Shown one piece after another: positions 577 to 51,289 of a stretch of 64,000 bases of DNA; position 1 is the stretch's first letter, and the number at the start of each line of letters is the position of its first letter. The notes beneath the pieces were generated by a model. The model was not told the DNA's origin. It did not search any database and was given only the letters and a program-made list of their open reading frames with translations. Source of the DNA: Hydrangea macrophylla (Eukaryota; Streptophyta; Magnoliopsida; Cornales; Hydrangeaceae); the NCBI GenBank assembly GCA_033977485.1, contig CM066994.1:84444871-84508870 (forward strand), given 5' to 3'. Position numbers and translations under genes: made by a program.

Positions 577-2689
577 ATGAGTTCCCATGGACAAGGTGAG
601 AGTTCTAAAATGTGTAGAAACCAATTTCAATCTAGTATAGCTTCATCATCTCAATCCATGGAGTATCCAACTGTGAAGGAGCCAATAACTCATATCTCTA
701 AGAGGGCTTTTCATCAAGAGGTAACCCTTTCTTCAATTTCTCACTATTTCTTTGCTTCATGTCTTCATGTGTGCTTCCAAATTCTTGCAAATACTTAGAA
801 ATCATCCTTCAATTTCTTTCTAGAATGTGCTAGGGTACCTCAGAGGTCATGGTAGCCATGAAAAATGCCTTGAGTGGTTCAATGAATTATCAAAATCACG
901 CCCCCAAGTAGTTGCCAATATTAAATAACCGGGCTTTGGGTCTTTTGTAACTTTGATGGAGAGACCTGCTAATGATTTGGCCATGATTCAAGCTCTTGCT
1001 GAGAGGTGGTGGGATTCCACAAATACTTTCCATATGCCTTTTGAGGAGATAACCATGACCCCACTTGACTTTGCTATGATTACAAGCATTTCATTTGGTG
1101 GGCATCGTCTTGCATTTGTGAAGAACATCCACAGATACCCCACTATTATCGAGCGACTTCTAGGCATTATTCTGACCTAGAGAGATCTTCACAGATCGAG
1201 TGTGGGTATTACATGGTTTACCAACAACTTTTGACCTTCTAAAAAAGCAGCTCGATTCACTGATATGCAGTTTACCCATGCTTTTATCTTATATTTGCTC
1301 GGTTTCTCTCTTCTCTCTACTCGAGTTGAGCAAATTACACTGAACATGCTTGATAGCCTTCATAATCTTGAGGAGATTATGGACTTTGACTGGGGCTCTG
1401 TCGAATTAGCCATTCTTTATAGTCATATGGGGGAGCATTCACAGGCAAGTCCCCTGGATTTGGTGGCTTTTGGAGAGCTTGGAAGGTAATAAAATATTTT
1501 CATTTCAAGTTTTATCATTGATATTATGTATTCTGACCACTGCTATATAATCTTTTGTAGGTGTGGGCCTTTGAGTACTTTTCCATGACAGCTCCATCAT
1601 CCCGGGAAGAAGAGATGCATATTTTCCAACGGGCTTTAAAGTGGCATCGCCAAGCTGTATAACAATTCATTTCTTGTCAGGATTTCCTTACCCATCTCAA
1701 GTTCGATCAAGTTAACTGGCATCCTTGGGTGACAAATGATGATGTGACTGAGATTGACTTGGCTAGATAGATGATAGGAGAAAGGATTCTTCTTGAAGGT
1801 CCCTTTGTTCTTGAGTGGTATCTTGGAGAAAGAGTAGCTCCTAGGACTAATTTGGAGGATCATCTCTTAGTGCTACAGGATCCGCATTCTTGTATAAGGT
1901 CTCCGCTGAATTTGGAAGATGATGATCTTGTCGATGCTTTGAACAAAATCCCTTTTACCTCATTTACTCTGTTTGAGGAGAACTATGACGTCTTCAGGGC
2001 CACTTATCTAATGCCCAATTTCTAGCTTTTAGATGACTCGCAGGTATTTCATAGCTTCTTCATTTCTAATTAAATGGTTGTTTTATCTTATTTCTTATTA
2101 TCATTTGTAGGGGAGCTCTTTTCTGGATTGCCCTGGCTGACCTTTACCTCCCATTCCTTCTTGTAACTGGCGAGCCTCGACTATGTTGTACAGAGTTATA
2201 TCCTTAGTGGAGATTCCCCATGATCTTGTGGAAACTCAGCTAGTTTTAGAGCAATATGAATCGGTTCCTAGAGCTATTTTCAATATAGAACGGGCTTATG
2301 CACAGAATCTGAGAGCTTATGGGCTTGCCCAGGAGGGACATGTGAGCACTTTTATACAAACCCATTACTTCTGATTCTCCTGATCTTTCTGATCTCGTGT
2401 TTCTTCTTTTATAGTGGGATGGTATGTGTCAGACTTGTATAGATTGAAATATGACTCTGGTAAATTTCTTGATCTTTCCTTCTTTTCATTGCATTTTCAA
2501 CCCTATTCTGATTATTTCTTTCGACAGGTGGCCCAAGTCAGGTAGCTTCAATCATAGCTAGAGCAGATAAATACAGCTCCTTCTGGTAGGGCTGAAGTGT
2601 CTAGGAAAAGGTGCTAAATTAATGATGATGATAGTTCTATGGCCTCAGATATGCTTGCTCGGTACCCACAAGCTACTCGTCATCGCTGA
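577..2689 (+). pseudogene. Plant mobile domain (PMD) gene, multi-exon, antisense within Tat element A
   Basis: The translation resembles the aminotransferase-like plant mobile domain family: LAERWWDSTNTFHMPFEE, then TPLDFAMITSISFGG near 950-1110, then tryptophan/acidic blocks to about 2340. GT..AG introns fit between coding blocks: 721-823, 1486-1560, 2044-2110, about 2342-2414 and 2460-2527. They leave exons near 577-720, 824-1485, 1561-2043, 2111-2341, 2415-2459 and 2528-2689. In-frame stops (TAA at 926-928, TAG at 1178-1180 and others) show decay. It lies opposite in strand to the gypsy polyprotein and beyond integrase, the position where antisense ORFs are known in Tat elements. PMD genes occur both as host genes and inside transposons. 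The identity is fairly sure; exon ends are inferred from splice-like sites. Confidence 0.72.
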
Positions 2690-3678
2690 TTGTGATGATT
2701 ACCCCTTTCAAATGTACCCATGACTGTCTTTCATGTTCTCTTGCTTTCTGTACTAAGACTGATGTTGACGCATTCTGTTTGAGACTTGAAAGGCTTGCAC
2801 CCTTGACTTTGCTTGATGCTACTTTATGCTATCCTTTGCTATTTCTTTACATTCCTTGTCACGAGGCTGACTTGCTTGACACTTTGCACATCGACACATA
2901 GGACTCAGTTTCAGAGAAAGGAAAATTTTAGATTCCCTTTCTCGACAATGTCTTTTGAATTTGATGTTTAAATTTCAAAGGATTTGCATGTTGAAATGAA
3001 AATTCATCTTATAGAAGGATATCATATTGACTTTGCATATAATCTTGAAGCTTTGAAAATTTTCCACGTAATGTCTCAATCTTGACATTGGACTCGCATC
3101 TTTAGATTGCTTAAGACCTTTTCAACTTAATATCAAGAATTACCAGATTTTTCACTTAGGTGCTTAATTCTGATAGCGAAGTGATCCAGAGAAGACATGT
3201 AGCAGGGTATGGGCAAATGACAGCTCGCGCCTAGTTGATAGGGATAAATGAAAGTTTGGGCAAACGCAGTTTGCCCCGAGTGTGGCAGTGATATCTTGAG
3301 GCTCTGGGAAAACTTTAAAAGTTTGCCCCTAGTTTGGAAGGTTTAGGGACCGAGAGCCAGGGAAGCTCACCTACTCATCCCTAAGTGGGAATCAGGTCCA
3401 AAGTAGTTCTGCCGAGGTTTGAAGGAAGCTATTTGAGATGTGGCAGAGTGTTTCAGGAGCAGTGACCGAACCAAGTAGGTTGCCTACGTATCCCCAATTG
3501 GGAATCAGGTCAAGCGTAGTTCCTCAAAAGTTGGATATTTTGAAAGAAAAGGTTTTAAATGAAAGGTTTTAAGCATAGTATTTCTTGAGACGATCAAAGT
3601 TGATTGGCTGATTGAATTCAACTCCATCAGGTATGCTCTTCCACCAGAGAAAAGCTTCTAGATGATGTGCTGACCAAC
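2690..3678 (-). other. Tat element A 3' untranslated region, downstream of integrase
   Basis: Non-coding DNA between the integrase end and the antisense PMD gene. It holds a duplicated motif block at 3345-3525. The short ORF at 2692-2901 has no recognisable domain and is probably chance. Confidence 0.5.
3345..3525 (-). repeat. Two imperfect direct copies of a Tat 3'-UTR motif
   Basis: Copy 1 (3345-3413) and copy 2 (3460-3524) share GACCGA, then CCTAC followed by GTAT or TCAT, then GGGAATCAGGTC and GTAGTTC, with a period near 115 bp. Such GGGAATCAGGTC-type sequences are common near the 3' end of plant Tat/Ogre-like elements as I know them; no role is visible. Confidence 0.5.
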
Positions 3679-4694
3679 CTAATTTGGCTTAAATTTCCCT
3701 TTGGGATCATAACCTGGTGCTTTTAATTCTGTAAGCACAAGGTCGGCTTCCTCAAGTTTTCTTGGATGGACCTTCTTGTTGAATGCTTGAGCTATTCTTC
3801 TCTGATACACATGCACATGATCGATTGTAGCTAACCTCTTTTCATTAAGTAACATTAGCTCTTCATATCTGTTTCTTAGCCAATCAAATTTTGGAATATC
3901 GGATTCAGCCACAATTCTTAGCGATGGTAGTTCTACTTCAACTGGGAGTACTGCTTCCATTTGTAAGCCAAGGAATAAGGAGTGGCTCCTGTAGATGTTC
4001 TGATTGACGTTCTGTATCCCCACAATACATATGGTAGTTTCTCATGCCAATCTCGGTATGTATCAGACATCTTTCTTAGAATCATCTTCAAATTCTTATT
4101 TGCTACTTCAACTGCCCCATTTGTTTGTGGCCTATATGGTGCTGACATGTGATACATAATCTTATATTCTTCTAGTTAATCCAAAACTTCTATCTAGAAG
4201 TGACTACCATGATTGGATATCAACTCATGAGGGACCCCATATCGACAGATTATATTTCTTCTGACAAGTCTGGACACATCTTAAGCCTTCAATGTCGTAT
4301 AGGACTCTGCTTCTACCCATTTTGTGAAATAATCAATTGCTACCAGGATGTATTGATACCCATTAGACGCTTTTGGGGTTACTTCTCCAATAACATCTAT
4401 ACCCCAAACTAAGAATGGCCAAGGGGTAGTCATGTTGTATATTAGTGATGGCGGCATATACTTCATATTGGCATGAATTTGACACTTGTGACATCTTCTG
4501 ACATATTCGTAGTAGTCTCTGTCCATAGTAACCCCTGTCGGATGATCTTTTTGGCTAACATGTGTCCACTCATCTAAGGACCACACACCCCTTCGTGAAT
4601 TTACCTCCATCATCTTCTTTATATTGTTCCCATATAAACACGTCAAGATGAACACATTATAAGACTTCTTTAGCAGACTTCTACCGCAAATCAT
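3679..4694 (-). pseudogene. Tat element A integrase
   Basis: Integrase inserts element cDNA into chromosomes. The zinc-binding part (CHKCQIHANMKY, 4500-4440) is followed by the catalytic core with WGIDVIGEV and ILVAIDYFTKWVEAE (4420-4300). The third catalytic region is APYRPQTNGAVEVANKN (about 4145-4090). The C-terminal part (4023-3679) contains GMQ-like, LPVEVELPSLRI and KKVHPRKL segments. Frames change between 4280 and 4157 and again near 3960, so no single reading frame covers it. It is the last pol domain before the 3' untranslated region. Confidence 0.88.
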
Positions 4695-4994
4695 GAACTG
4701 AGCTGAGAATCATCTTACTCTTGTCTTTCTCGGATGCACCTTCTGGATATTTCCCATTTTTAATGAAGTTCCATACGTCGGTGTACCACGGAAATTCTTC
4801 TACTTCTTCTATTTCACCAATCATCTCATAAGATGGCATTTCTCTCTATTCAATCATCAATAGAGTTAATTTTATCCCCACAGGAATCTCAATTATCGAG
4901 GCTAAAGTAGCCAAGGAATCTGCTATCTGATTTTCTCCTCGAGGTAGGTAGAAGAACGTGATATGCAAGAAATGGTTCATAGAGAATCAAGGTA

Positions 4995-5263
4995 ATCATG
5001 ATAAGGCTTTAGCTTTCTTCATTGACACTCTAGTCTGCTCGAACTTGGGATATGATTAGATTGGAATCCCTGTATACATAAAGTTTTCTTACTTCCAAAG
5101 AAAATGCGGCTTCTAACCCCAAGATACAAGCTTTGTACTCAGCAGTGTTGTTGGTGGAGATGTACTTCAACTTAATAGCGAATGGGGTATGTGCTCCTTC
5201 AGGGGATGCAAGGATGATCCCTACTCCATACCCTTTCTGGTTTGCAACTCCATCAAAGTACAT
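4995..5263 (-). pseudogene. Tat element A second (archaeal-type) RNase H
   Basis: This extra RNase H between the normal RNase H and integrase is a hallmark of the Tat lineage. YFDGVANQKGYGVGIIL carries the first Asp, NNTAEYKACILGLEAA the Glu and YRDSNLIISQV the second Asp, so the core acidic residues are retained. The downstream part to 4700 is broken by stops. Confidence 0.82.
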
Positions 5264-5266
5264 TTT

Positions 5267-5692
5267 TCACACATCTTCTCTTAATTCCATCAATCCTTTG
5301 TCAGGGAACATGCATTCTTCTTCAATTTTTAGACTTATCGAATGTTCTGCTAAATGTTCTATGACAGCCCTTCCTATAACAGATTTACTCGTAGCATATG
5401 TCAAGTCAAACCCAGATAGAATCAAGGTCCATCTAGAAATTGTACCTGTCAATGCTGGTTTTTCAAAGAGGTACTTCAAAGGATCCATTCGAGAGATCAA
5501 AACAATAGGGAAGGCCAACGTATAATGCCTTAGACGACGAGTGGCCCAAACCAAAGCCCAACATATCTTTTCTAGCGGAGAACACTTCAGCTCGTATCTA
5601 GTCAACCACTTGCTCAAGTAGTAAATGGCTTTCTGTGCATGCCCTTCATCTCCTTCATGGGCTAACATACATCCCATAGCATTCTCCGACAC
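5267..5692 (-). pseudogene. Tat element A RNase H (RT-linked)
   Basis: Gypsy-type RNase H removes the RNA strand during reverse transcription. Visible blocks are GCMLAHEGDEGHAQKAIYYL, YELKCSPLEKICWALVWA and RRLRHYTL. After them comes the conserved tail DPLKYLFEKPALTGTISRW. The frame stays open for 141 residues, then shifts into the second RNase H. It follows the RT directly. Confidence 0.85.
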
Positions 5693-5749
5693 GGATAACT
5701 ACAAAAGTGAAGGCTTCCCTGCCTTTGGGGGTGAAAGAACCGGTGGATT

Positions 5750-6690
5750 TAATAGATAAGTCTTGATTTTATCAAAAGCTTCTTGGCACTGGTCGTCCCA
5801 TTTAAATTTTTTCCCTTTTCTTGACAAGCTAAAAAGCAGATCATAAGTTGCAGTGAGCTTAGCTATGAAGTTACTAATGAATTGGTTTCATCCCAGAAAT
5901 CCTCTTACTTCCTTTTCATTTGTTGGAGGCAACATATCTATAATAGCCTTGATCTTCGTGGGGTCAACTTCAATTCCCCTCTATAAAATGAGAAATCCTA
6001 GCAGTTTCCCAGTGGTTGCTCTAAAAGTACACTTCTGTGGGTTTAATCTCATCCTGTATTTTCTCAATCTTTCAAAGAACTTGGTGAGGGCTGCAAAATG
6101 CCCACTTCTTTCTTTGGACTTGACAATCATGTCATCCACATAGACTTTTACTTATTTATGAATCGTGTCATGTAACAAAGTAGAAGCAGCTCTCTAGTAG
6201 GTTGCTCCAACATTCTTTAACCCAAATGGCATCACTCGATAACAGTACGTCCCCAAGAGTTGTGCATGTGGTCTTTTCTCTCTCTTCGGGTGCCATTAAA
6301 TTCTGATTGTGCCTTGAGAAACCATCCATGAACGATAACAGTTCATGCCCTGCCGTGTTATCTAATAAGACATCTATATGTGGGAGCGGGAAATCATCTT
6401 TGGGACTGGCTTTGTTCAAATCTCTAAAGTCAACACATACTCGGATCCTTCTATCTTTCTTTGGCATGGGAACTATACTGACTATCCATTCAAGGAATTG
6501 GGTTACCATCATGAATCCGACTTTCAACTACTTCTTAACTTCTTCTTTAATTTTCAAAGTCCATTCAGGTCTTATGCATCTCAATTTCTACTTAATAGGT
6601 TTTGAATTAGGAAAGAGAGGGATATGGTGTTGGACAATCTCTGGATCAATGCCTGGCATATCTTCACAAGACTAAGCAAAAACATCTTTA
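5750..6690 (-). pseudogene. Tat element A reverse transcriptase
   Basis: The RT is read from about 6690 to 5750. Seen are IVSIVPMPKKDRRIRVCVDF, DLNKASPKDDFPLPHID and HELLSFMDGFS (6490-6330), then a frameshift near 6260. Beyond it the catalytic YVDDM motif is still legible at 6124-6143. Further finger and thumb remnants reach 5750. At least one frameshift and several stops make it non-functional. Confidence 0.86.
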
Positions 6691-7010: not shown

Positions 7011-8059
7011 TCAGTTGACTCTTGATTCTATCACCCAATTGTTCAAAGCTCCCTCCATCGATTTCATTTCTTTCACATTTCCTGGTGATTCTTCAGCATC
7101 CATCAGCATGTTTAGTTCTTCACCCATTAGTATGTTCAGATCATCACTCGTCATCAGATCAACCCAATCCTTCTTTTCTTTCTTGATAGGTGGAGCATAG
7201 AAGAACGGATCCTCATAGTCGGCGAACTCATGCTTGAAGAAAATCTTAAATCTAGGCTTGATGCTCTTGGTAGCTAGATTATACCACAATTAAGGAAAAC
7301 CACAAAAGGGAAAGTCATCACCCTCTTTTACGAAGTACCCATTAAGAATTCTCGGCCCAGAAACAATCATCGGCCCTTTTCCTTTTACCATCTTCTTCTC
7401 GTTTTCTTCAATCAATTGATACCCGAGCCCAAATTTATCTTTCTGCTCATGTAAGTCAAGTGATTCAGTTATTCCTTGATGATGACAACCCAATCCCATT
7501 CCAGGGAAATAATTCATCTTTCGCACCATGTGAGCTTCTTTAGGATTTGCATATTAGTCAAAGTACAATGGCATGACTTCAAGGATCCAATTATATCCCT
7601 CTTCTTCTTGTAGGTCTTCAACAACTGGGTTTCCTTTCTCAAACATCTTTCTATACTCGTGCCTAGTGAAGAACGACTTCTTTTTCTTGAACGATGTGAT
7701 TTTTTTGCCCCAGATAGATGCATCAGGAAGTCTTTTCTCTTTGTCATAGCTGAGTCGATCCCATACATAATTTTTTGTTGAACCCTATCCCAGGTTCACC
7801 CATACAGTTTCTTTCCTTCATATAGCATTCCCACAAAGTTGAATCCTCCTAACTCACTTTCTTCTTTAGGAGTTTGAACTTCCAGCACAGGGCTATGGCT
7901 TGTTCCTTCTTCCTTGATCCAGTTGTCCCCAAAGATTGTTACAATATCCTCTTCCTATATGAACTTGACTTTCTGGTGGAGAGTGGAGGCGACTACATCA
8001 TTTATATGTAACCACGGACGTCCCAATACCAGATTGAAACTAGCTAGAATATCAATCAC
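7011..8059 (-). pseudogene. Tat element A protease-RT linker with G-patch-like segment
   Basis: The most coherent frame runs from about 7790 to 7290 with one stop near 7556. It contains YDKEKRLPDASIWGKK, a basic lysine-rich run, then FPGMGLGCHHQG and KFGLGYQL. GMGLG and GLGYQ are glycine-rich G-patch-like motifs often seen in Tat polyproteins between protease and RT, where their role is unclear. The following part (7289-7011) includes KIFFKHEFADYEDPFFY. Confidence 0.65.
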
Positions 8060-8416
8060 TTAGAATTCAACTTCTTTGTTCAATGGTCCAACTTTAATTT
8101 TTAGCTTAATCATTCCCACGATAGCCGTTTTAGTATTATCATAGGCCCTCATAGTCTGTGCCAATGGTAAGAGTTCTAAAATAGATAGCCCCATTCTGAG
8201 AGTTGTTTGGAGAGGACATACATTCAAAGCTAATCCACTATCTACCAAGCAAATGGGTACTCTATTCCCCAGGGAGTGTATAGTGATGTAGAGAGCCCTA
8301 TTGTGGTGTGCCCCTTCTAGCGGTAAATCATCTGTGAATGTGATTACAAGCTTGCGAAGTTTTGAAGAGATCATATTCACTAGATCTTCGAAAGTAGTAT
8401 TGATAGAAACATCCAA
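8060..8416 (-). pseudogene. Tat element A aspartic protease
   Basis: A retroviral-type aspartic protease that cleaves the polyprotein. The active-site region reads ICLVDSGLALNVCPL, keeping Asp-Ser-Gly. The flanking blocks LPLEGAHHNRALYITI and TAIVGMIKLKIKVGP match the expected strands around the site. The frame is open for 118 residues. It follows a conserved upstream stretch (8646-8420) that is frameshifted once near 8462. Confidence 0.8.
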
Positions 8417-9529: not shown

Positions 9530-9604
9530 TTGATGTCAGTAGACTGATGATAGACTAGCTTTTCTGTCTTTCTGTATTGATGTCAGCAGACTGATGATAG
9601 ACTA
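9530..9604. repeat. 46-bp-period direct duplication at the gag-leader junction
   Basis: TTGATGTCAG followed by AGACTGATGATAGACTA occurs twice (about 9530-9557 and 9577-9603) with two differences. It marks the join where most of gag is missing. Confidence 0.6.
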
Positions 9605-10552
9605 ATCCAATCATTATCTAAGGATATTTAGCTTTGAAATTCTTGATGGCTCAGGTTCGCAAAATTGATTTTTTTTCCATGAAAATCTTGGAAGGAAGGG
9701 GTGGATTTGTAATTTTCAAAAGCACTTTTGAACCATCAATGCCTGAGGTGTGAAATCATGATTCTCGAAAACCAAGTAGGAAATTTGTATTTCTAAAATT
9801 TGAGAGGAGAATTTGAAATTGAATCATCAATGTGCGAAATCATGATTTTTGAAAACCAAGGTAGGAAATTTGAAACTCTCTAAAATGTAGTGAGAATTTT
9901 TTTGGAAGGATTTGTGAAAGTGAATTTCAAAGTGAATTTTCAAAAGGAATATTCTTGGAATTTTCAAAAGACTTTGGTTTTTCAAAGAAGTGCTTGTATT
10001 TTCAAGATTTTCAAAAATCATCCTCGAATAATGATTGGATGTTTGGATAAAGACCATACTACCCTAGAGGAATCTACCATACAAGGTTTGATGATACCTT
10101 CGCATACACGTCCTCATCATCCACATAATCCTTTATAGGCAAACACAAATGATTCATCACATCGTCCTAATAAAAGATGATAATCAAGATCCTAATTGAA
10201 GGGTTCTACAGAAACTATATGCAAAGGCCAGGTTTTAGTCTCATAAAGGGTCCATTAGCAATCTCAGGAGTGTGGATGACTGCCTCCCCAAGGGCATTCC
10301 GTTCACACATGGGCTCTATATACCGCATACAGTACAAGGCTGACGGTGACTACATGCTACCAAGTCTCTCAACAAATGGAGGAAAGGGGCCCTCCACCCT
10401 CAAGGCAATGGTCTCAAGCAGTCGCGGTGATAGAACAATGCAAGTGCAAATACATGCAGAAACAACACGATTATTGAATTAATAACAAGGATATTTATTG
10501 GCTAAAGTCAAACCCTCGAAGGACAAGAAACCATAAATTTCATGTTCAAATC
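9605..10552 (-). other. Tat element A leader (5' untranslated region)
   Basis: Non-coding leader between primer-binding site and gag. It contains many TTTTGAAA/TTTTCAAAA words (9620-10010). It matches the leaders of copies B (18245-19230) and C (35075-36170), for example the block around GACCATACTACCCTAGAGGA. Short ORFs here (9890-10482) are not conserved as protein. Confidence 0.75.
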
Positions 10553-10571
10553 CCTAGTAGAGTTGCCAGAT
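10553..10571 (-). other. Tat element A primer-binding site
   Basis: On the minus strand TCTGGCAACTCTACTAGGG directly follows the LTR end CCACA. The same spot reads TCTGGCGACTCTGCTAGGG in copy B and TCTGGTGACTCTGCC in copy C. Tat/Ogre elements typically carry a TGGCGACTCTG-type site at this place; the tRNA was not checked. Confidence 0.72.
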
Positions 10572-13454
10572 TGTGGAATCCGTACGTGGGCGGTCTCTCG
10601 TTCCTTAACAGTGTCCCAGGATGGATCCAAGGAGCACACTTCAAGAACTAGAACTCCTCACACGATCCTAGGGACAAAGAGTCGCCACCTAATTTTTATG
10701 GGAATTAGGAAACCAAATTTGACTCGCCCAAAATTGAATAGAGTTACTCGTACTTCTTCACCAGAAACAAGGTTCGGGTGACTTAGTATGAGAGGGGAAG
10801 GAGCCCGAGTACGACTAAAGCACCCCTTCCTCGCCCTATCGAATGGTAGGCCTTGATTCAAATATCCTTATTCTTAATTCATAGTAGGTGTTGTTTCCTC
10901 AATCATACTAGATAATATATACATGGCAAAATGAACATCCAATGAAAATCATTTCAAGAGATTAAATTAAGTACCAATCGGATGCACATGCAATACAAGA
11001 GGGAGGTATACTTACAGTGTCTACTCTTTTCTGGGACCGATGAAAATAAAGGAAACATGTCATGATATGCAAAAGGGAATAAGAAGACTTACGTTGGATT
11101 GACTCAAGCAGAGTCACAAAAAGCAAAAGAAAGGAAATGTGTAATGCAATCATACAACAATCTTAGATAAGCTGTCTCTAATATATAAGCACATAAATAG
11201 AGACTATCCTAAAGGAATCGTGTCATTGAAAACAATGTTGTAAACCTAGAAAAATTCTAAGAGAAAGGGTAGAGATAGTACATAATACATGGGCACAAGC
11301 CACATGTAGACAAAGCAAACCCACAAATCAAAATCCAGATCCACGACATTCAATTCTCTGCACTAAGACACCAAGGAATACCCAAGCATGTCAAAAATAC
11401 AAGCAAACAAATGATATGCATGATAACAAGAAGAAGATGTCATCAATTAAATTTCCAGATTCAGTGATCTCTACATTGATCTTAAACATAAGCAGACGAT
11501 TTCAACTCGATTGTATGCTCATGATTTTACATCGGCATATTAATACAAGAGTTAGGAATCATCCCTAAAAAGTAGATCATCGATATTTATTGTAGATTTT
11601 CTTAAATTCAAATACAAAGAGACTATATTGAAATTTGTTAACCAATTTCTCAATAATTTCTAAAAATAGCATATGGATCTAATGATTCTCAAAATGGATA
11701 AGCTAATTCATCAAAGTTTACCCAGAAAATTTGAAATCCATCAAACTATGGGTTTTGATGGACCAGATCCTATGGACAAAACCAATCTGTTTTGCTGAAT
11801 TTTAACTAATTCATTTTAAAGTGTGAGAAAAACATCTTAGGTGTTGGTTTATGTTTATTAAAGAGATCAAACTCAGGCATCAACTTGATTATCATGATTC
11901 CCAATCAATTTAGTCCTCAAGATCTATGAAGAACTTTGGATCATGGATCAAAGGGACTTGCAAATATCCTCTTGGAGATGAAATTCAATAAGAATTCTGG
12001 GTAATAGGAACAACCAAGAGAAAGGTATGAACATAGGAATCATCCTTCTCATAGATCATACTTCCACACCATCATAGAATTCAAAGTAGATACATATATA
12101 TAATCATATATGCATAGATCTAAAATAAATAGAAGAATGAAATCAAAATTAAAAATCAAAGTAAAAATCATCTCTAATCATGAATGATCAACAAAGCCAA
12201 GGAGGACTTGGATCTAGTTTGTGCGTGTGTGAAGAACAAGAGAAGAAGATGAGTGTTATAACAAAGAAAACAAAACTAAACTAGATCCAAGTCTTATCGA
12301 TCTATATGTAAAAGAAAGAATTAGAGATGAATTGTGATGTTTACCTCTTGGTGGATTCTCAATAATGTATTCAAAGTTGATTTGAAGGATCTTCTTCTTC
12401 AAGTGTTGTTCAAGTTCTTCAAGCACTCATCCATGGTGGAAGTTAAGGGAGACAGTTGATGTTTAATTTATTCTCTAATTCTCTAAGATAATTATCTTGA
12501 AATTAGTTATAAGAAAATTCCATTCTTAATTCACTATTCTCTCTTTAGAAATCTCTTGAATTCAAAGTATATTTAAAGTTGTGATCTCACATATATGCTA
12601 TGGTATCTCTAGGATATTCAAAGTATCTTCCAAGTCCTCCTTTTCATATGAGATGCAAGGCATCAATATATAGAATTTTGAAAACTTAATTCTTAAGTTT
12701 TAGGGTTAAAATAGAGATTTTAGAGATCAGAAAAGGGTTAAAATTGTCATTTTAGTGCCTAAATACAGCTTCTGGGTAATTTCCTAGCAATGGGAACCTC
12801 TTGGAAGGGTTTGGAACTCAAAAAGTTTGATGGGGAATGCCACATAGAGGTGGAGGTTTAGGGGGGGAACCGCCACCCCTTTGTGGGACCCGCCGCCATA
12901 TGCTTTCTTGGTCCTTCGGTTGCCATCATGCCCTGTTTCAAAAATTACATGCACTGCTTTTCCATATTTTCATAAAAATGCTTTTTGTGTCCGAAATCAT
13001 CCGTTTACGTACCGTTGGAAAGTTGTCGAGTTGAATTTCAGTATAAAATATTCCAGGAGGATTTGAATTGAGAATTGAAGGTCAATTGAAGTCCGAAAGT
13101 CCTCTGGAACTTTCTTCGTCTTTTTAAAATTACTTCTTTTTCAAAATTGCTTTTCAATGTTCATCGATTTCGAGTTTATCTTTGAAATTGAATCTCTGAA
13201 TACCTATAATACTGCATTTAGAACACTTTATGTTCATATAACCTTGAGTGAATATCAATTCTAATAGACAATTTTGACAACACCGGTATTTGATGCTGGA
13301 AAATGGCTTTTCTGAGCTCAAAGTCACTTTCTGAAGTTCGATCTTTTGATTATGTGGAATCCAGTACCTTCCACGGGGTACTTTTCATCATTGAATCCTC
13401 CAAGACGTTGTCCACCCTAAATCCTAATAGTGTGGTCAAATTTGATTGTATACA
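10572..13454 (-). mobile_element. 5' LTR of Tat element A
   Basis: On the minus strand the LTR starts TGTATACAATCAAATTTGAC at 13454 and ends CCACA at 10572, next to the primer-binding site. It is collinear with LTR B (19249-22692) but lacks about 560 bp present there (20160-20740). A GC-rich inverted repeat lies at 12846-12880 and a TATA-like CTATATATTG on the minus strand at about 12668-12677. Length is 2883 bp. Confidence 0.82.
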
Positions 13455-14743
13455 CATATGACTTGGGAAAAATGGCCATTAAGGTCTCAAACAAAAATTC
13501 TAAGAGTCCAGTAGCTCAAATTCAAAAAATCTTTCAAAACTGGTATGTATAGAAAGTAAATTGTGAAAACGAGAATGAAAGAGCATAAGAATTCTGGGAG
13601 ACTTCCAAACCAAAGCTAATGTTAAATTCTTATTAAAATTACTCCCAAGATATTTTTAGATTGAAATTCAATCTTACAGCTTTCCAATGGCGCGAAAATA
13701 GGCAATTTAAGAGGCCAAAAATCAAATTTTAAGAAAATCCAGAAGGGCTACAGACATGAAATTTGACAGGGAAGCAAAGGATACAAAGGGGAAGGCAAAA
13801 AGAAGTGGCAGCTGGAAAAAGGAGGTGGCAGGTCCCACCATAGCTGCCACCTCCCATTGTTGGTCACCACTTGATTTTTCTCTCTCCCACTATATATACA
13901 CATGTGCTGTGAAAAGAAATCGCCCAGTTACATCATTTGGTCCCTAAATTGACACTTTTACCCTCTTTCTATGCATTAAAAGACACCCAAATCCTACTAC
14001 TCTTGCCTATAAATTGGACCCCTTGGTCCCTCCTTTAAACCATGGGAAGCACACCATGAAAAACACTAAAACACCTAAGAATATAGGGAGAATCCACCTA
14101 GAACTCATACACATGAAGTGAGATGTGCTTGTCTTTTCTTGAATAGAAAATGAAAAAGTAAGAAATGCATTTTTTTTTATTTTCTTGAAAACTTAAAAAG
14201 AAGTAGTACTTTAGAAGATCTAAGCTATAGTATGACTTGACATCTTTGCACTCTTGACTTGGAGCTTGAAAAGGAGAATGAATTTTATTCCAACATCTTT
14301 GAATTTTATTGAGATCTTCAAGAGGTAAACTCCAAAACTACCTATTTAATCTACTAGATTTGTATATATGTATTTCTATAACTTGGATCTTTTCTTTCTT
14401 CTTTTTGTTTTCTTTACACATTTGCTTTGATTTCTAACACAACTTGCACAAAGATCCAAGTTCTAGTTGATTTTGTCGATAAAAGATGGATTAGAGGTGC
14501 TATTTTCATATTTTCTTTCACTTTGAAGATGATTGGTGTTCTTGGGTTTGTTTCCTCTTTAATTAAAGAACATGTGTGCACACACTTGAACACACATCAT
14601 TATTTGCCTTTTGCTTTGAGTCCATGATGAAGATGTATATTTCCTTCTATGACTCTACATAAGTAAATGTACTTTTATTTTCTCTTTTGGGCATACCAAG
14701 ATGATAATTGTAAGTCCTTTAACCAACTAGTTTGGTGTTCTTT
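13455..14743 (+). other. Unassigned LTR-like promoter DNA
   Basis: No protein is recognised. There is a perfect 11-bp inverted repeat (GGAGGTGGCAG at 13821, CTGCCACCTCC at 13844) 37 bp before a TATATATA at 13891. It is followed by a purine-rich leader with TCAAGAGGTAAAC at about 14317. This resembles the U3-R-U5 layout of a gypsy LTR, perhaps chromoviral, with neither end clear. It is bounded by Tat LTR A on the left and copia LTR 1 on the right. Confidence 0.35.
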
Positions 14744-16225
14744 TGTTGGGTTTGTGCCCTCAAACCATTACTTTATGTATGAGACATTGACATTTTAATA
14801 TATGGATATCAGCTTTACATTTTATACGCATGATTTTTTCATGAGATGATTGTTAATCCTAAAGTATCGTAGTACATACAAGTGAGATACGAATCACTAT
14901 TCTTTGATACTTAGAATTTGTCACTGTGGATTATGAGACTGGATATCTCCTCAAGTTCACATTGTAGCATGATTAACTACCATGGGATGGAGTGATGAAT
15001 CTCAATCACTAGAGCATAACACTTAGTTAGTATGCTAGTGCTTATAGTGCATTGATGGACCTGAGCTTTCCTATTGACACTTAAGACTGTCAATAGTCGA
15101 TAGAAACTCATAACTTGTATAAGGAAAGAGTTCTCAATCTTGAGACGATTATCAACACAGACTATGGATATGGCTGCTTTGACTTACCAATCAGTGAGGT
15201 CTTAAATATCAACACTTGGGTATCTTGGGTATATCATGTTCACGGGGTTGTGAACATATATTGTCAAGATAGAATCTACCCTATGATAAAGAGTATGCAT
15301 TCCCTTGAGAATGTCACCAAGTTGATTTCTGAGAACTGCAGTCTTGTTGATAAGCAGTTATCAACATGTTTGGTAATCATGAGAGGTGAATGGGACTCAA
15401 GGAATACAAGATGTAATCATGATTTAGGTTGACAGTAATAGTTTATCTGACTACCTGAATATGATTACGGATGCTGATGGTAGAGGGACATTCGTATACT
15501 ATACAAGTCTAGACATTACTTTAGATATGTTCTTTTGCATTATAGTTTAGTTATCATTTTATAGTGGAGTAAACGTTAACAGATCAATTGGTCAATTTCC
15601 TGATCAAAGAGTTTGGTCATGGGAATTAACAACTAATTTGAGCCAACAATTAAGAGCCTAGGAAGTCTCACTCTCAGCTTCGATAAAATGCTTGGAAAGG
15701 CACAAGAGGATGTTGTCATGACATATTCGGTCGATCGAAAAGGTTTCGATTGATTGAAGTTAAGGCAAGTTTGATCGATCGAAAGTTATTCAATCGATCG
15801 AAGGTTCAATCGATCGAAGCCACTTCAATCGATCGAAAGCTTAAAGTTTGTTTGGAAATCTACAAATAGGACAGGTGCGTACAAAATATCTCTAATCATT
15901 ATTTTATCACCCAGATGGCTGTAAAATTTATTTAGGGTTCCCAAACCTTCTCTATCCTCCCTACTAGAGATGCCACCATCTCTAGCCTCTTTGAAAGTGT
16001 TCAAAGGAGACATAGGAGTGAAGACCATCTAGTGGAGGCTCCTGCACCACCGAGGAAGAAGACGATCAGAATTGGGTTCAAGACCATTAGGTACAAACTC
16101 TTTTCCCTCTTATATACGTATCTATAGAATTGTTGAGTAGTAGATCTAGGCTACCAATAATGTTTCCAAACTTTATCTTTCCACTGCGCGTTTAAATAAA
16201 ACTTTTTAAACCCTTTTCCCTTTAA
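14744..16225 (+). mobile_element. Ty1/copia LTR 1 (5' LTR of copia unit I)
   Basis: Starts TGTTGGGTTTGTGCCCTCAA and is homologous through its length to LTRs at 26991 and 31503. It ends just before a primer-binding-site-like TATATCAGAGTCA. Six palindromic TTCAATCGATCGAA-type words at 15725-15840 precede a TATA-like CTACAAATAGG at 15860. ORFs inside (15115-15432) are also present in the other LTRs but decay independently and are not genes. Confidence 0.85.
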
Positions 16226-17850: not shown

Positions 17851-19230
17851 ACAACTGTTCGAAGTTCTGACCCAGGAGGTAGTACAACTTTTTGCTTATT
17901 AGGGACTTTCAAAATAATCAGGTATCTTATTTGCAAAAGAATTTTCAAAGAATGATATTTACAAAAGTGGATGGAAAATCAAAGATGGAAAATCATATCT
18001 TTTTCAAAAATATTTTCTAAAATTGAAGAAATCTTTTTCAAAATTTTGAGGAAGACAATTCTTTTATTTTCAAAAGTATTTTAGAGGCGTTGAACTCGTG
18101 AGTCGTATAAGCAATGCTCGTGTAGTGTATGCAATGCAGATGAAATGCAATCTAATCTAAATGCATTGCACCTTAATCTAGCTTAGACCTAGCATATCAG
18201 CATATAAACACATAAGATTCCTTGAGTATGCTAATTACCTTACTAATCCAAAAATTATCCAAGGATTTTCAGCTTTGAAATTTTTGATGGTTCATGTTTT
18301 ACAAAATTGAATTTTTTATGAAAATCTTGAAAGAGAGGGGGGATTTGTAAATTTCAAAAATAATTTTGAACCATCAATGCTTGTGGTATGTAATCATGAT
18401 TCTTTGAAAATCGGGGTATGAAATTGGAATTCTAAAATCTGAAATTGAATCATCAAAGTTGGAATCATGATTTTTTTTCTTGAAATTTTGAAAACCAAAG
18501 TAGGAGTTTGAAATCCTCTAAAATTTGATAGGAGAATTTTGAAATTTGAATCATCAAAGTGGGAATTTTGAAATTCTCTAACAATCTAGAGAGAATTTTG
18601 GAAGGATTTTGTGAAAGTGAATTTCAAAGCAAATTTTCAAAAGGGATATTCCCAGAATTTTCAAAAGTTTCAAAGAAGTGCTTGTATTTTAAAAAATTTT
18701 CAAAAATTGTCCTTGAATAATGATTGGATGTTTGGATAAAGACCATACTACTCTAGAGGAATCCACCATACAAGGTTTGATGATGCCTTTGCATACACAT
18801 CCTCATCATCCACATAATCCCTTACGGGCAAACGCAAATTATTCATCACATTGTCCTAATCAAAATCCTAATTGAAGGGTTCTATAGAAACTATATGCAA
18901 AGGCCGGGTTGTAGTCTCATAAAGGGTCCATTAGCAAGCTCAGCGGTGAGGGGTTACCGCCTCCCCGAGGGCGTGTCGTTCACACATGGGCTCTATATAC
19001 CGCACGCGGTACAAGGCTAACGGTGACCACATGCTACCAAAACTCTTGACAAATAGAGGAAAGGGGGCCCTACACCCACAAGGCAATGGTCTCAAGCAGT
19101 CACAGTAAAAGAACCATGCAAGTGCAAATGCAGGCAGAAACAACACAATTATCGAATTAATAACAAGGATATTCTTTGGCTCAAGTCAATTCCTCGAAGA
19201 ATAAGAAATTATGGTTTCATGTTCAAATCC
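17851..19230 (-). other. Tat copy B leader
   Basis: Non-coding and collinear with the leader of element A from about 18245 onward. It is rich in TTTTGAAA and TTTTCAAAA words. The part nearest gag (17890-18245) matches copy C in inverse order but is missing from element A. Confidence 0.72.
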
Positions 19231-19248
19231 CTAGCAGAGTCGCCAGAT
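19231..19248 (-). other. Tat copy B primer-binding site
   Basis: Minus strand ATCTGGCGACTCTGCTAG lies directly inside the LTR end. It is the best preserved of the three Tat primer-binding sites in the window. Confidence 0.75.
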
Positions 19249-22200
19249 TATGGATCGGTGCACTCGGATGAGGTCCTGGCGTCTTCCCTCGATAGTGTCC
19301 CAGGACGGATCCCAAGGAGCACACTTCAGGGAAGACTAGGACTTACTCACGCGATCCTAGAGACAAAGAGTTGCCACCTAATTTTTATTGGGAATTAGGA
19401 AATCCAAGTTTGACTCTCCCAAAATTGAATAAGGTTACTCGCCCTTCATTACCAGAAACTAGGTTCGGGGGTCTTGGTACGAGAATAGAAGGAGCCTAAG
19501 AAGGACTAAAGCACCCCCTCCTCGCCCTACCGAATGGTAGGCCTTGATTCAAATATCCTTGTTCTTAATTGATAATTGGTGTTGTTTCCTCAAACATACT
19601 AGATATATATACATGTCAAAAGGGAACATCTTATGAAAATCATTTCAAGAGATTAGGTCAAGTAGCAATCGGATGCACATACAATATGAGAGAGAAGTAT
19701 ACTCACAGTGGTTAGTCCCGCCCGGGACCAATGCAAATAAAGGAAACATGTCATGATATGCAAAAGGGAATGAGAAGACTTATATTGGTTGACTCTAACG
19801 GAGTCGTAAAAGGCAAAAAGGAAGGAAATGTCTAATGCAATCACGCAACAATCCTAGATAAGATGTCTCTAACAAATAATCATATTAACGGAGACTATCC
19901 TAAAGGAATTTGTGTCGTTGAAATAAAGTTGTAAACCTAGAAAAATTTTAAGAGAAGGGATAGAAAAGGTACACGATACATAGGCACTAAGCCACATGTA
20001 GACGAGGCAAGCTCACAAATCGAAGTCCGGATCCACAGCATTCAATTCCCTGCACTAAGACACCAAGGAATACCCAAGCATTGTAAAGACACAAGAAAAC
20101 AAATGATATGCATGAAAAACAAATAAGACATGTCATCAATCAAATTTCCAGATTCAGCAACCTCTAATGAATCCTATCAAAAGTCGTCTTAAACATGAGC
20201 TGGGTTAAAACCCTTTTACAGAAAGTTAGATACATATCTTAAGGAACTTCTCGAAAAAGTAGAAACTCCTTACCATTTTTGAAGTTTTAGAAATGAGAGT
20301 TTTGGGAACAGTAGATCAGGATTGTCCACTGTTCTTGTAAAAATCATAATTAATACAACAAAAATCATGTGAAGCTCTATTTGGTGTCAAAAGAAATCTA
20401 TTTCACCATAGTATATGACAAAAATAATCACATAGATATGTCATGATCTTAAGGTTTCTGAAAAGTTATTTTAAACAGACTTTGTTATTCTGGAAGTTTG
20501 ATGTCTTTTGACAAAAGAATGTAAAATACAATAGAAGCATAATAGAAAATCATGAATCGTGTTAATAAAGTAGATCTAAGCTTTTGACCTCTCATCTATT
20601 TATCCTAGATGATTTCTAAACCAAGTTTTATTCATCAATTGTTGTTGAGTGATCAAGGTATGACCATTTTGTATACATAATCATAATTGTAGTTAAACTT
20701 AGAAAATTCCAGAATAGTAATATCAACTTCAAATGCTTAGAAAATGATCTTAACTAGATCGTATGCTCACGATTTTACATTGGCAAATACATACATGAGT
20801 TAGGAATCATCCCCAAAAAGTGGAACATCGATAACTATTATAGATTTTCTAAAATTCAAGCACAAAGAGCCAGTCTTCAAATTTGTCAACCGATTTCTCA
20901 ACTATTTCTAAAAATAGCATATGGATACTAGAAGTTCTCAAAACGGACCGGATGAAAGTTAATTCATCAAAGTTCACCTTGAAAATTTGAAATCCATCAA
21001 ACTATGGGTTTTAATGGACCAAATCTTATGGAAAAAACCAATTTATTTTGCTGAATTTTATCTAAATCATTTTTAAAGTGTGAGAAAAACATCGTAGGTG
21101 TTTGATTGAAGCTTATTAGAGAGATCAAATTCATAGATCTACTTAAATATCATGATTTCTAATCAATTTAACCCTCAGGTTCTATGAAGAACTTTAGATC
21201 ATGGATCAAAGGGACTTACAAATATCCTATTGGAGATGAATTTCAATAAGAATTCTAGGTTATAGGAATAATCAAGAGATAGGTATGAACGTAGGAATCA
21301 TCCTTCTCATAGATCACACTTCTAAACCATCATAGACTTCAAAATAGATACATATATATAGTCATGTATGCATGGATCTAAACTAACATAGAAGAAATAA
21401 AATCAAAATTGAAAAACAAAAGGGAAAATCAATCTCTAATTACAAATTATAAATAAAATCAAAGAGACTTGGATCTTAGTCATGTGAGTGTGTGAAGAAC
21501 AAGAGAAGAAGAGGATGAGTGTTCTAACAAATAAAATAAGACTAAACTAGATCCAATTCTTATAGATCTACATATAAGAAATAGGAATTAGAGATGAATA
21601 CTGATGTTTTCCTCTTGGATTCTCAATTATATGATCAAAGTTGATTTGAAGATTCTTCTTCTTCAGGTGTGCTTCAAGCTCTTCAAGCACTCATCCATGG
21701 GAGTTAATGGAGGCAACTGATGTCCAATTCATCTAATCTAGTTATCTTGAGAATCATTTTTCAAAGTTATAATTCACTTCATCTCTCTAGAAATCTCTCT
21801 TAAGTTGAAAGTATTTTTATATCTAGCAAGTATATGAACTAGTTTCTAGCATATTCCAAGATCACTCAAGATGATCTCATATGAGATGCATGAGATCTAT
21901 ATATAGAGTTTTAAAAACTTAACTCTTAAGTTTCTGGGTTAAAACAGGGATTTCAGAGAGTAGAAAAGGGCTAAAATGGCCATTTCGGTGCCTAAACGCA
22001 GTTTTCAGGCAATTTCCTCGCAGTGGGAACCTTCTGAAAGGGTTTGGAACCAGAAAATTTCAATAGAGAACACACATTGTAGGTGGAGGTTATGGTGGGA
22101 CCCGCCACCCCCTTACCCACAACCACCAATTGCTATTTTGGTTCCCCTGGTTACCTTTAAGCCCTGTTTCAAAAATTACGTGCACTGCTTTTCCAAATTT

Positions 22201-22692
22201 TTGTAAAAATGCTTTTTGGTGTCCGAAATGGTCCATTTATGTACCGTTGGAAATTTGTAGGGTTGAATTTCAGTATAAAAATATTCCAGGAGGTTTTGAA
22301 ATGAGAATTGAAGTCCAATTGAAGCCCGGAAGTCCTCCATAACTTTCGTGGTCTTTTTAAAATCAAACGACGCCTTTTTCAAAATTTCTTTTCAGTGTGC
22401 ATCGATTTTGAACTTTTCTTTAAAATTGAATCTTTGGATACCTAGAATACTGCATTTATAACACTTAATGTTCATATAATCCTGAGTGAGTATGAATTCT
22501 GAGAGACGATATCGACAAAATCGGGATTTATGCATGGAAAAGGGCTTTTCTGAGCTTGAAGTCACTTTTCAAAATTTGATCTTTTAATTTTGTACAATCC
22601 AGTACCTTCCACAGGGTACTTTTCATCATCGAATATTCCAAGACATTGTCCACCCTAAATCCTATCAGTGTGGTCAAAATTGGGTGTCTACA
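19249..22692 (-). mobile_element. 5' LTR of Tat copy B
   Basis: On the minus strand it begins TGTAGACACCCAATTTTGAC at 22692, a very common start for plant Tat/Ogre-type LTRs, and ends at 19249 next to the primer-binding site (terminal CA now TA). Length is 3444 bp. The minus-strand TATA-like CTATATATAG is near 21897-21906, about 175 bp after a GC-rich inverted repeat (22081-22110). It abuts Athila gag on the right, so B probably inserted there. Confidence 0.85.
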
Positions 22693-24640
22693 CGGTACCT
22701 CAATGTTTGGTGGGAAAGGCAGTTTTGGAACATGATTATTTAGGACCAGTTCATCTTCTTTCTTAATTTGACTCATCTCTTCACCTTTCTTTTGATTCAA
22801 ATTAATGTTTGGATCTCTGCTACTCTTCCTCAGGATCTCAACAACTTCTTCCTCCCGAGTAGTTGGCCTAGTTGAAACAGCATTCACTTGCTCATTTGTA
22901 CCACCCACCTCGTATTGTCCCTTAGGTTTCTGAATAGGTTGACTTGGAAACTTACTCTCAGTCAAATGGTTTAGTGTGTTAGCTATTTGTCCCACTTGGA
23001 AATCTAGCTTTGCAATGGACTGCGTGTGAGAGTGTACTAATTGGATCACCGAACCAAAACTTTCAAGTGAGGCCAACACTTTTTCCTCAAATGCAATATT
23101 ACGCAGAGGTAGAGGAAGAGGAGGGTTGGGTTGTGTATATTGATATTGTTGGGACTGATGTTCCCATGCATTAGGAAAATTAGTTTCAATTTAAGGTCTT
23201 TGGGAGGAATATGAGCTCTCATTATTTTGAGATCGCCACCCAACATTTGGGTGACTTCTCCATGGCACATCGTAAATATTTCCCGAAGGGTTGTGATCAT
23301 TTCATGAGAATTGTTGAATAAAGCTAATGTGTTGCTCGACAAACTCTCAGAATTGAGAAGCAGAAGGATATGCGAAGATATTATGAGAAGGTTCAGAACA
23401 AAATGCACATACTTCGAAAGGAGGTAGACTGGACGCCTTATGTATTGAAATTAATTGGTCTAACTTTCTAGATAACTCATCAACCTTATTAGACATATCC
23501 ACTGAAAGACCCGACTCTAACTTTCCTCCCCACTTAGAAGGACTAGGATGAATTCCATCTGGCCGTTTAGACACCGCTTGGTGCATTGAGTTCTGACTTA
23601 ACGTTTCAAACATGGTCCATGCCTGGTCGACACTCTTATGGAGGAAAGTGCCTACACAAATGACATTAACCATGTTTCTAACTTGGGGGGTAAGTCCCTC
23701 ATAAAGAATTTGGACTAGTTGCCATTTTGGAATTTGATGATGAGGACATGTGTGCAATATTTCTTTGAAGTGTTCCTAAGTGTCATAAAGTGTGTTATAA
23801 TCTTTCATTATGAAATTCATAATAGACCTCCTAATTTGATTAGTTTTTGTAATTGGGAAGAAATTTTGTAAAAAGGCTTTGTGCAGCGTATCCCAAGATT
23901 TTATTGAATTGGGTTTAAGTGATTGAAGCTATTGTTTAGCTTTATCTTTTAAAGAAAAAGGGAATAATCTGAGTTTTAGTTCTTCATCCGTGAAGTTTTG
24001 AAACTTAAGGGTTGCACAAATATCTTGAAATTAGTTTAAATGGTGATATGGATCTTCTTGTAAGCGACCATGAAACGAAGGTAAAAGTGAGATTGTGGAG
24101 GACTTAATTTGAATATGAGATGTTATCACCTCTGGAAACTCGATACAAGAAGGCGAAGTGTATGTAGTGGGAGTAAAATAGTCTTTTAGTGGATGAGGTG
24201 GGGGTATATTAGGGTTCTTCCCATTATTTTGCTCGTTCCCATTGTTTCCAAGGTCAGCCATTGGAATAGGACCAATGATATTCACACGTGGTTTCTTTAG
24301 TCTTTTATGGGTAATTCGTATTTCGGACTCAAACAACGACGACGGTTTCGGTATTGATTCGTTGTCTAGCATCAACTGAGCTCTAGAAGGTTGGGTTAAT
24401 GACCTAAGGACTCTTAGGTACGTTCAAGTTCGGGATCAAAAGAATGTAATTCGGGTTTACTCGAACGCATACCAAACATAAACTAAAAAAAAACCACACT
24501 AGATAAAGACTGACTCAAACAAATACGAAGACAATCATGAAATTAAGACAACAAGCACACAACTACTATGATGCATGAAAGTTATCCTGTAATGCAGTGA
24601 TTCGCGTCAAAGCCCAGTGCCCCAAGTTTCCTAGCTAATG
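22693..24640 (-). pseudogene. Athila-type gag (minus strand)
   Basis: The gag is read from about 24400 to 22693. Segments in order: PLKDYFTPTTYTSPSCIEFP and HGRLQEDPYHHLN (24375-24031), then QLVQILYEGLTPQVRNMV (about 23720), then VDELSRKLDQLI. Next is a CCHC-like block CAFCSEPSHNIFAY with the last Cys changed to Tyr (about 23400). The final part is SFGSVIQLVHSHTQSIAKLD and QVGQIANTL (23079-22528). Frameshifts fall near 24030, 23350 and 23080. The sequence ends inside NIEVPC at 22693, where Tat LTR B begins, so the C-terminus and all of pol are lost. Confidence 0.85.
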
Positions 24641-26464: not shown

Positions 26465-26990
26465 GTATGTATGGCGGGGATGAGATAATTCTAGACGGAT
26501 ACAATGATTGAGAGTTTATGTCAAATAAAGATTCGAGGAAGTCGACATTCAGAGATCTCTTTACCTTGGGAGGTAGTGTTGTTAGTTGGAGGAGCATTAA
26601 GTAGAAATACATTACAGACTCAATACTGAAGCTGAGTATGCGGCTGCTTGTGAAGCCACAAAGGATGCTGCTCAGCTCAAAAAGTTCCTTATGGAACTCA
26701 GGTTGGTACCAGCATTGCTATCACCTATTACGCTATACTGCCATTATAGTGGGGCAGTGGCTTAGTCCAAGGAGCTAAGGAACCACGGAATGGGAAAACA
26801 CGTGGAGTAGAAATATCATCTAATCTAAGATATAGTTCAACGTGGAGATGTGACTGTCAGCAATATTGCCACCTATGACAATCATGTTGATCCGTTTACA
26901 AAGGCCTTGCCTTAGAAGGTCTTTGATCGTCATCTTGATAATTTAGGTCTCAAATGTAGTCCTTAATGGTTATGAGTACAAGTGGGAGTT
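26465..26990 (+). pseudogene. Copia unit I RNase H (3' end of pol) and polypurine tract
   Basis: The translation shows SRKSTFRDLFTLGG then SWRSIK and EAEYAAACEA-like remnants, the copia RNase H. The same region is present in copia unit II at 30950-31480. Several stops and a frameshift are present. AAGTGGGAGTT at 26980-26990 is the polypurine tract just before the LTR. Upstream copia pol is missing because the Athila element cuts in at 26465. Confidence 0.8.
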
Positions 26991-28427: not shown

Positions 28428-28794
28428 TCCAAGGCAAAGGAATGTATTTCCAATGCAGTGAGAAGGACCACTGGAAAAGGAACTGTCTAGAATTCTTAGC
28501 TACAAGAGTTTAAGGGTTCAAATCAACCAGGAAATGTAGTGATGGAGATCGTGCAGACTCTAGGATCTTGCACAACTGTTTTCGCGGTTGCTATAGGGGT
28601 AGTAGTTTTTGAGTTTTTGGACAATAAGACAATAGTTTTATCATATGTAGTTTACATCATTTTAATGAGACATAATTTAATTTCTATTTAAGATTTATCG
28701 AATAAAAAATTATTCTTTTTATTTTGGACTAGAAGTTGTCATTAAAAGAAATGGTTCTTTTATATGTTCTGGTGTTAAAACTAATGGCTTTTAT
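28428..28794 (+). pseudogene. Copia unit II gag zinc knuckle and protease remnant
   Basis: YFQCSEKDHWKRNC near 28445-28490 is a CCHC knuckle lacking the first Cys. Stops follow. A short block like the protease-integrase spacer (SYVVYIILMRHNLISI) is near 28640-28690. The primer-binding site, N-terminal gag and most of protease are deleted. Confidence 0.65.
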
Positions 28795-51260: not shown

Positions 51261-51289
51261 AAACACCTTTTGAATATTGTATAGTGTTC

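Follow-up and report, generated by a model that had tools for sequence, protein, structure and literature searches.

A six-exon plant mobile domain gene antisense to pol in Tat-type retrotransposons of Hydrangea macrophylla

How can a gene split by five introns persist within a retrotransposon, which copies through RNA, and does its product serve the element that carries it? The question is raised by a 64-kb stretch of Hydrangea macrophylla DNA (C13:84444871-84508870, in a 2.22-Gb genome of 19 sequences; hereafter the window), where a six-exon gene for a plant mobile domain (PMD, PF10536) protein lies at 577-2689 on the plus strand, antisense to a Tat-type pol. An earlier, sequence-only reading had proposed this gene, with five short GT-AG introns of about 65-105 bp interrupting the PMD; they are found at 103, 75, 67, 73, and 68 bp in the window copy, with GT-AG borders throughout. 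A profile search with the spliced translation bears out the domain: exons 1-2 match PF10536 at E 5.1e-22 and 79 bits, passing the Pfam gathering cut-off of 34.9, and exon 3 matches at E 7.8e-6, under the cut-off when taken alone. The gene model and its membership of the element are thus close to certain in our judgement; what the sequence-only reading missed is the decay of the window copy and the predicted likeness of its product to the transposon anti-silencing protein VANC.

Exon 1 (577-720; 144 majority columns) starts with the ATG at 577 and by itself carries no selection signal; it is followed by intron 1 (721-823, phase 0) and by exon 2 (824-1485), which holds the bulk of the domain. 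Intron 2 (1486-1560), also in phase 0, leads into exon 3 (1561-2043), and intron 3 (2044-2110, 67 nt) shifts the frame when left unspliced before exon 4 (2111-2341). Intron 4 (2342-2414) is the least certain of the five; exon 5 (2415-2459; 45 columns) is short and its evidence therefore weak; intron 5 (2460-2527) precedes exon 6 (2528-2689), which includes the stop codon. Conservation extends beyond both ends of the gene: mean pairwise identity climbs from 0.76 to 0.86-0.90 at about position 350, so that the block directly 5' of the ATG (350-576) is likely the promoter and 5' untranslated region (UTR), and the stretch past the stop codon (2690-3170), with an identity of 0.83-0.89 that drops to 0.80 or less beyond 3170, is likely the 3' UTR.

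A genome search with the PMD block yielded 45 matches among the best 40 scored of 2812 first-look candidates. Thirty-two of them, including the window copy, are full length, and 13 partial ones were excluded; as the aligned copies come from the best 40 of 2812, they are skewed toward relatives of the window copy. The other 31 full-length copies, all retrieved with their flanks and chosen for carrying the PMD, are 81-88% identical to it. All five introns are kept in each of the 32 copies, none being lost anywhere, and the comparison with other Tat copies in this genome, which the sequence-only reading had called for, thus supports the gene. Intron lengths vary narrowly (89-108, 70-77, 60-69 with one of 39, 61-73, and 57-73 with one of 45, for introns 1-5). 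The donor GT is present in 29, 30, 29, 21, and 32 of the 32 copies, and the acceptor AG in 29, 31, 29, 30, and 24. As a conservation control these counts are neutral: across the 32 copies, conservation of the splice dinucleotides does not reliably exceed that of the intron interiors, the share of interior positions conserved at least as well being 0.33, 0.19, 0.33, 0.84, and 0.04 for the donors of introns 1-5, and 0.33, 0.10, 0.33, 0.19, and 0.71 for the acceptors. Intron 4 is the weakest, with AT in place of the donor GT in 11 of the 32 copies.

On majority columns the exons measure 144, 663, 501, 231, 45, and 162 nt, each divisible by three, and in the spliced frame none of the 581 codon columns has a stop in at least 16 of the 32 copies. 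By the same count, the two other frames show 3 and 5 such columns in exon 1, 12 and 15 in exon 2, 11 and 13 in exon 3, 2 and 4 in exon 4, 1 and 0 in exon 5, and 1 and 6 in exon 6; exon 5 has fewer stops in frame 2 than in frame 0. Reading in frame through introns 1, 2, and 3 meets 1, 2, and 1 shared stop columns, respectively; reading through introns 4 and 5 meets none in the 32 copies.

Relatives in public collections point to the same borders. Unspliced open reading frames (ORFs) in public assemblies lose their PMD likeness at the intron 2 border: in a survey of 52 proteins of unspliced origin (ena, lgn, jgi, src; two of more than 700 aa excluded), 31 reach this border, and in 27 of these the next codon is Val (GTN), the exceptions being P0047 (S), P0075 (A), P0082 (I), and P0104 (I). 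Among annotated proteins, 18 of the 25 that reach this border continue there with W-[AST]-[YF]-E, and P0046 reads through intron 2 in frame, its PMD resuming as LWAYEF. At the other side of the exon, the unspliced relatives P0067, P0044, P0050, and P0081 show, by eye, intron-like ends directly before exon 2.

A further line of evidence comes from copies found through pol alone (window 3700-5700), for which the best 40 rows of 7547 candidates were taken. Thirty-three of the 40 have near-equal scores (2516-2562 bits) at 88% identity to the window; this suggests a recent burst of copies, although the comparison is to the window and not among the copies themselves. The PMD is present in all six of the 40 rows that were covered at this place: the window copy, four already-known copies, and one newly read row. 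This last copy, L044, is apparently young; 801 bp were read at the expected PMD place, covering part of exon 3, intron 3, and exon 4. Neither the exon 3 part (161 codons) nor exon 4 (77 codons) has a stop in the spliced frame, the other frames of exon 4 have 4 and 5, and intron 3 is retained with 67 nt and GT-AG borders. The public protein P0036, from a Logan assembly, is 99.5% identical to L044 over 199 aa and continues through intron 3, as does the output of splicing-unaware gene callers; a scan of IMG/VR with P0036 and a plasmid search were uninformative. Full-length copies without the PMD block, which the sequence-only reading had named as evidence against its proposal, did not appear, in what is a thin test, as the 31 copies were chosen for holding the PMD. 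That the introns are chance GT-AG pairs is ruled out by the exon frames, the distribution of stops, the unspliced relatives, and L044.

The pol to which the gene runs antisense lies on the minus strand. In its order of reading, it comprises a protease-like piece (8060-8416; recognised by eye, without a Pfam match), a G-patch domain (7290-7553; PF01585 1.3e-7, above cut-off), a reverse transcriptase piece (6168-6527; likewise by eye and without a Pfam match), RNase H (RH; 5267-5887, with PF17917 9e-20 at 5267-5698, above cut-off, and PF17919), an additional RNase H (aRH; 5030-5266, PF13456 8.8e-10, above cut-off), and an integrase in pieces (3679-4709; PF13683 6.6e-4, PF00665 0.009, and PF17921 0.015, all under the Pfam cut-offs). 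Two RNase H domains, here PF17917 and PF13456, mark the Tat lineage (PMC6317226), and the order RH (5698-5267), aRH (5266-5030), integrase (from 4709 down) is that of Ogre and Retand elements. The Ogre clade is marked by a primer-binding site for tRNA-Arg and an intron between gag-pro and reverse transcriptase, and the Retand clade by an antisense TRP28 (PF04195) gene; no primer-binding site was recognised in the stretches inspected, and no PF04195 among the pieces scanned, which cover part of the region.

Whether the gene belongs to this element, or is a lone captured or neighbouring host gene that lies beside it by chance, is decided by the other copies. Past the PMD, 23 of the 31 run into integrase beyond window position 4100, and 8 stop earlier within the retrieved flank. 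On the upstream side, 15 of the 31, the source of the query counted, share a common edge 2281-2783 bp before the ATG, which ends TGTCTACA or close to it (in four copies the alignment ends two bases earlier), after which comes a pyrimidine tract resembling GTTTGCCCCTCTTT; this is as expected for the end of a long terminal repeat (LTR) and a polypurine tract viewed from the other strand. The search for this edge covered 3 kb upstream of the gene, and in other copies it could lie further off; L010, with the LTR edge on the opposite side of the gene, is excluded from the 15. The copy at C1:44068833-44070941 has a second stretch of this LTR sequence, in the same orientation, at 44048245-44050051 (87% and 94%), whose outer edge, in L043, shows 93% identity across the final 344 bp; for the copy in L032, the 5' LTR was not found at +8 to +14 kb and lies further off. 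The same-strand LTR pair and the shared LTR edges thus place the PMD gene inside the element, in antisense. The position that the sequence-only reading had assigned, on the other strand from pol with integrase on one side and the 3' LTR on the other, is thereby established from these other copies and not from the window copy's own LTR, and the antisense multi-intron gene recurs with its introns across dispersed Tat copies. Host genes also carry PMDs, and the window copy is without a visible 3' LTR: its own was not found, and the family homology stops some 940 bp to the left of window position 1. But the unit recurs genome-wide (45 matches, among the best 40 of 2812), reaches integrase in 23 of 31 copies, and is flanked by LTR edges, which makes a lone host gene barely credible and refutes it where this family is concerned; the PMD itself may have an ancient host origin.

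On the gag side, the window copy is cut at about 9600 by an LTR-family block (9601-13454), which has its right edge in common with the family LTR and is 81% identical to a second one at 18242-22692; the second block is possibly the 5' LTR of the window copy. A third block at 33812-36521 is inverted and more diverged. A second PMD fragment, divergent and oriented the other way (L040:3296-3601, minus; 48% identical to P0001 over 42 aa), is found some 2.4-2.7 kb to the left of where the window starts.

Does the gene then make a protein that matters to the element? The window copy is a pseudogene, with 11 in-frame stops and one frame-breaking indel; exon 2 has a 1-nt deletion after 1442, and exon 3 a longer in-frame deletion after 1659. 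It is a dead element member, and all 32 aligned copies of the gene are broken. Selection is visible in the changes that copies share: those common to at least three copies favour third codon positions (168:122:252 for positions 1:2:3), whereas single-copy changes are without position bias (323:316:332; shared versus singleton p 2e-6), changes common to exactly two copies being left out. By exon, the bias is significant in exons 2 (p 7.5e-4) and 3 (p 4.8e-4) only, with no such signal in exon 6. Neither a non-coding control (46:45:54; 30 copies) nor the introns (30:36:42) are significantly biased; of the integrase, the core shows the third-position bias (12:15:41; 20 copies), and two further stretches do not. 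The unspliced reading of the block is biased too (210:165:275), because in most copies the lengths of three introns are divisible by three, and the codon-position test therefore supports coding more than it supports each single border. Mean pairwise ratios of nonsynonymous to synonymous differences (pN/pS; codons with gaps or stops excluded) are 0.823, 0.376, 0.382, 0.551, 0.357, and 0.610 for exons 1-6, compared with 0.59-1.11 in the wrong frames; exon 1 (0.82) compares with 0.92 and 0.81 in its other frames, and exon 4 (0.551) with 0.588 and 0.922. Overall identity is nearly equal between exons and introns. This pattern means purifying selection at the protein level during the spread of the element, then neutral decay after insertion, and a selected protein function of the PMD gene is very probable.

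Two alternatives dispense with such a function. In the first, the antisense RNA and not the protein matters, pairing with the sense genomic RNA to feed small-RNA silencing or to limit copy number; in tea, 175 PHAS loci map to PMD genes (PMC10673657), and regulation by antisense RNA has been discussed for antisense ORFs (PMC7264820). This is improbable, as selection on protein is evident from the codon-position bias and from exons 2 and 3 with their pN/pS of 0.38, and on these two grounds a protein-free antisense RNA is rejected as the selected unit. In the second, the gene is a passive passenger, kept for its length or as a relic and without a present role, as the breakage of all 32 aligned copies might suggest; the selection on shared changes and the exons 3-4 open in one apparently young copy make this very improbable. 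The sequence-only reading had left open whether the gene helps the element or is a captured host gene: selection across copies favours use for the element, which may have taken the gene from a host at an earlier stage.

As to what the selected protein does, the closest solved fold to the PMD is that of VANC21, the VANC fold being recovered through two predicted structure models. Foldseek alone gives 10 matches at E ≤ 10 and none at E ≤ 0.001, a search of the PDB by sequence returns nothing convincing, and the DUF1985 cut-off of 35.1 bits is reached neither by the window copy (16.5 bits) nor by P0002 (22.7 bits). The relatives P0045 and P0052 do carry PF09331 among their precomputed domains. 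Tandem repeat arrays with units of about 31-44 bp adjoin the gene on the stretch from the start codon to the 3' LTR; the count of a motif in them reflects no more than the repetition. VANC21 and VANC6 of the VANDAL Mutator-like elements (MULE; PMC5735166, PMC10398659) share with the present system the fold, as judged from the two models, similarity to DUF1985, and tandem arrays in non-coding DNA; VANDAL is a DNA transposon, unlike the LTR element here, the window copy misses the DUF1985 cut-off, and VANC-like activity is here a prediction from models. VANC-like anti-silencing is a plausible but slightly doubtful function for the PMD protein.

The gene would then work as follows. A promoter close to the ATG would drive an antisense RNA polymerase II transcript, which would be spliced and translated; as the introns are introns on the antisense strand only, the sense genomic RNA would stay unspliced there, so that they would outlast copying. 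The PMD protein would most likely assist its own element as an accessory factor that binds DNA in a sequence-specific manner; its probable part would be to bind the tandem repeats that lie from start codon to 3' LTR and to counter host silencing. Taken as a whole, a selected, spliced antisense PMD gene with a VANC-like anti-silencing role is an evenly balanced proposition. Its product might instead compete with the host PMD proteins, pairing with MAIN/MAIL or PP7L and disabling silencing in trans, since MAIN, MAIL1, and PP7L interact and are required for the silencing of transposable elements (PMC7156037); this is unlikely, as VANC21, the closest solved fold, binds DNA and the adjoining tandem arrays fit DNA binding better.

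Parts of this picture are known from other elements. PMDs in Ogre elements and antisense ORFs in Tat elements have been described (PMC6317226, PMC11963269, PMC7264820): PF10536 occurs in 57% of Ogre elements (PMC6317226), and the PMD-bearing Ogre/Tat elements are likewise of Tat lineage, have their aRH placed after RH and before integrase, and carry the PMD in an extra gene. That survey sought extra ORFs as uninterrupted frames of at least 250 codons, whereas here five short introns split the gene and the full frame arises through splicing only; such surveys would miss or truncate intron-bearing antisense genes. The antisense ORFs of Retand, Grande (gene23), and RIRE2 share the position between pol and 3' LTR (PMC11963269, PMC7264820); the Grande antisense gene has its own promoter, and tandem repeats occupy the same zone in roughly half of the Retand elements with recent activity. 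The Retand antisense ORFs differ in mostly encoding TRP28. Term searches of both papers gave no occurrence of 'intron' or 'PMD'. Searches of the open-licence PMC literature yielded no description of an antisense PMD gene with several introns inside an LTR element, and none of a link between the PMD and the VANC fold. The case indicates that an antisense gene can retain several introns through retrotransposition under selection.

Host relatives widen the question. MAIN, MAIL1, and related proteins share the PMD and differ in being host genes that promote silencing (PMC5418596, PMC7156037), the PMD being called a domain of unknown function in the latter. PMC5418596 describes the PMD-A clades as encoded exclusively by Gypsy elements and calls the priority of Gypsy or host PMDs fully open; a counter-silencing role for transposon PMDs has been suggested in PMC8616336, and in PMC5418596 for MULE elements. 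The VANC fold would add a concrete hypothesis for PMD proteins, namely sequence-specific DNA binding, and would join a DNA-transposon anti-silencer, an accessory gene of LTR retrotransposons, and a host silencing pathway. More broadly, PMD and VANC might form one family of transposon-made anti-silencers, encoded in LTR elements by an intron-bearing antisense gene and binding repeats by the 3' LTR, with host MAIN/MAIL as members turned to the opposite use and the antisense strand letting old spliceosomal introns persist; we hold this tentatively, as rather doubtful.

How old the introns are is addressed by a PMD tree of 64 sequences, which separates a TP.DF-type (48, including the window copy) from a T[LI].DV-type (11) with 100/100 support, 5 belonging to neither; it was built without named PMD-A, PMD-C, MAIN, or MAIL references, and gives the window copy no firm place within the TP.DF-type. 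Val at the intron 2 border is also found in four unspliced ORFs of the T[LI].DV-type (P0076, P0088, P0090, P0097). The DV-type copies of this genome are broken by a gap, a probable intron, at most about one codon away from the intron 1 place, and match without a break across the intron 2 place. That the introns are common to both types is thus suggestive, not proven. The gap near the intron 1 place is seen in seven DV-type copies; the DV-type copies share about 55% identity with a Camellia MAIN-LIKE protein, and 11 have stop-free frames of 273-466 codons. In the same search of this genome, 18 of the 122 rows match the PMD over an open frame of 258 codons, with near-equal scores and no internal stops, and apparently represent a young, separate PMD-bearing family.

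The remainder of the window holds other repeats. One family, 77-83% alike, occurs at 14742-16220, 26519-28414, and 31036-32951, and a short tandem repeat array at 51286-51634. A weak Retrotrans_gag match (0.0021, under cut-off) at 23347-23775 on the minus strand is perhaps the gag of another element right of the second LTR block. A Copia-like piece with GAG-pre-integrase and rve lies at 28681-29595 (plus strand), pieces like those of long interspersed nuclear elements, with zf-RVT and RVT_1, at 57527-57976 and 58801-59226 (minus strand). At 44960-45370 (plus strand), Transposase_32 (PF20167, 1.5e-4, under cut-off), which stands for a putative plant transposon protein, is matched weakly.
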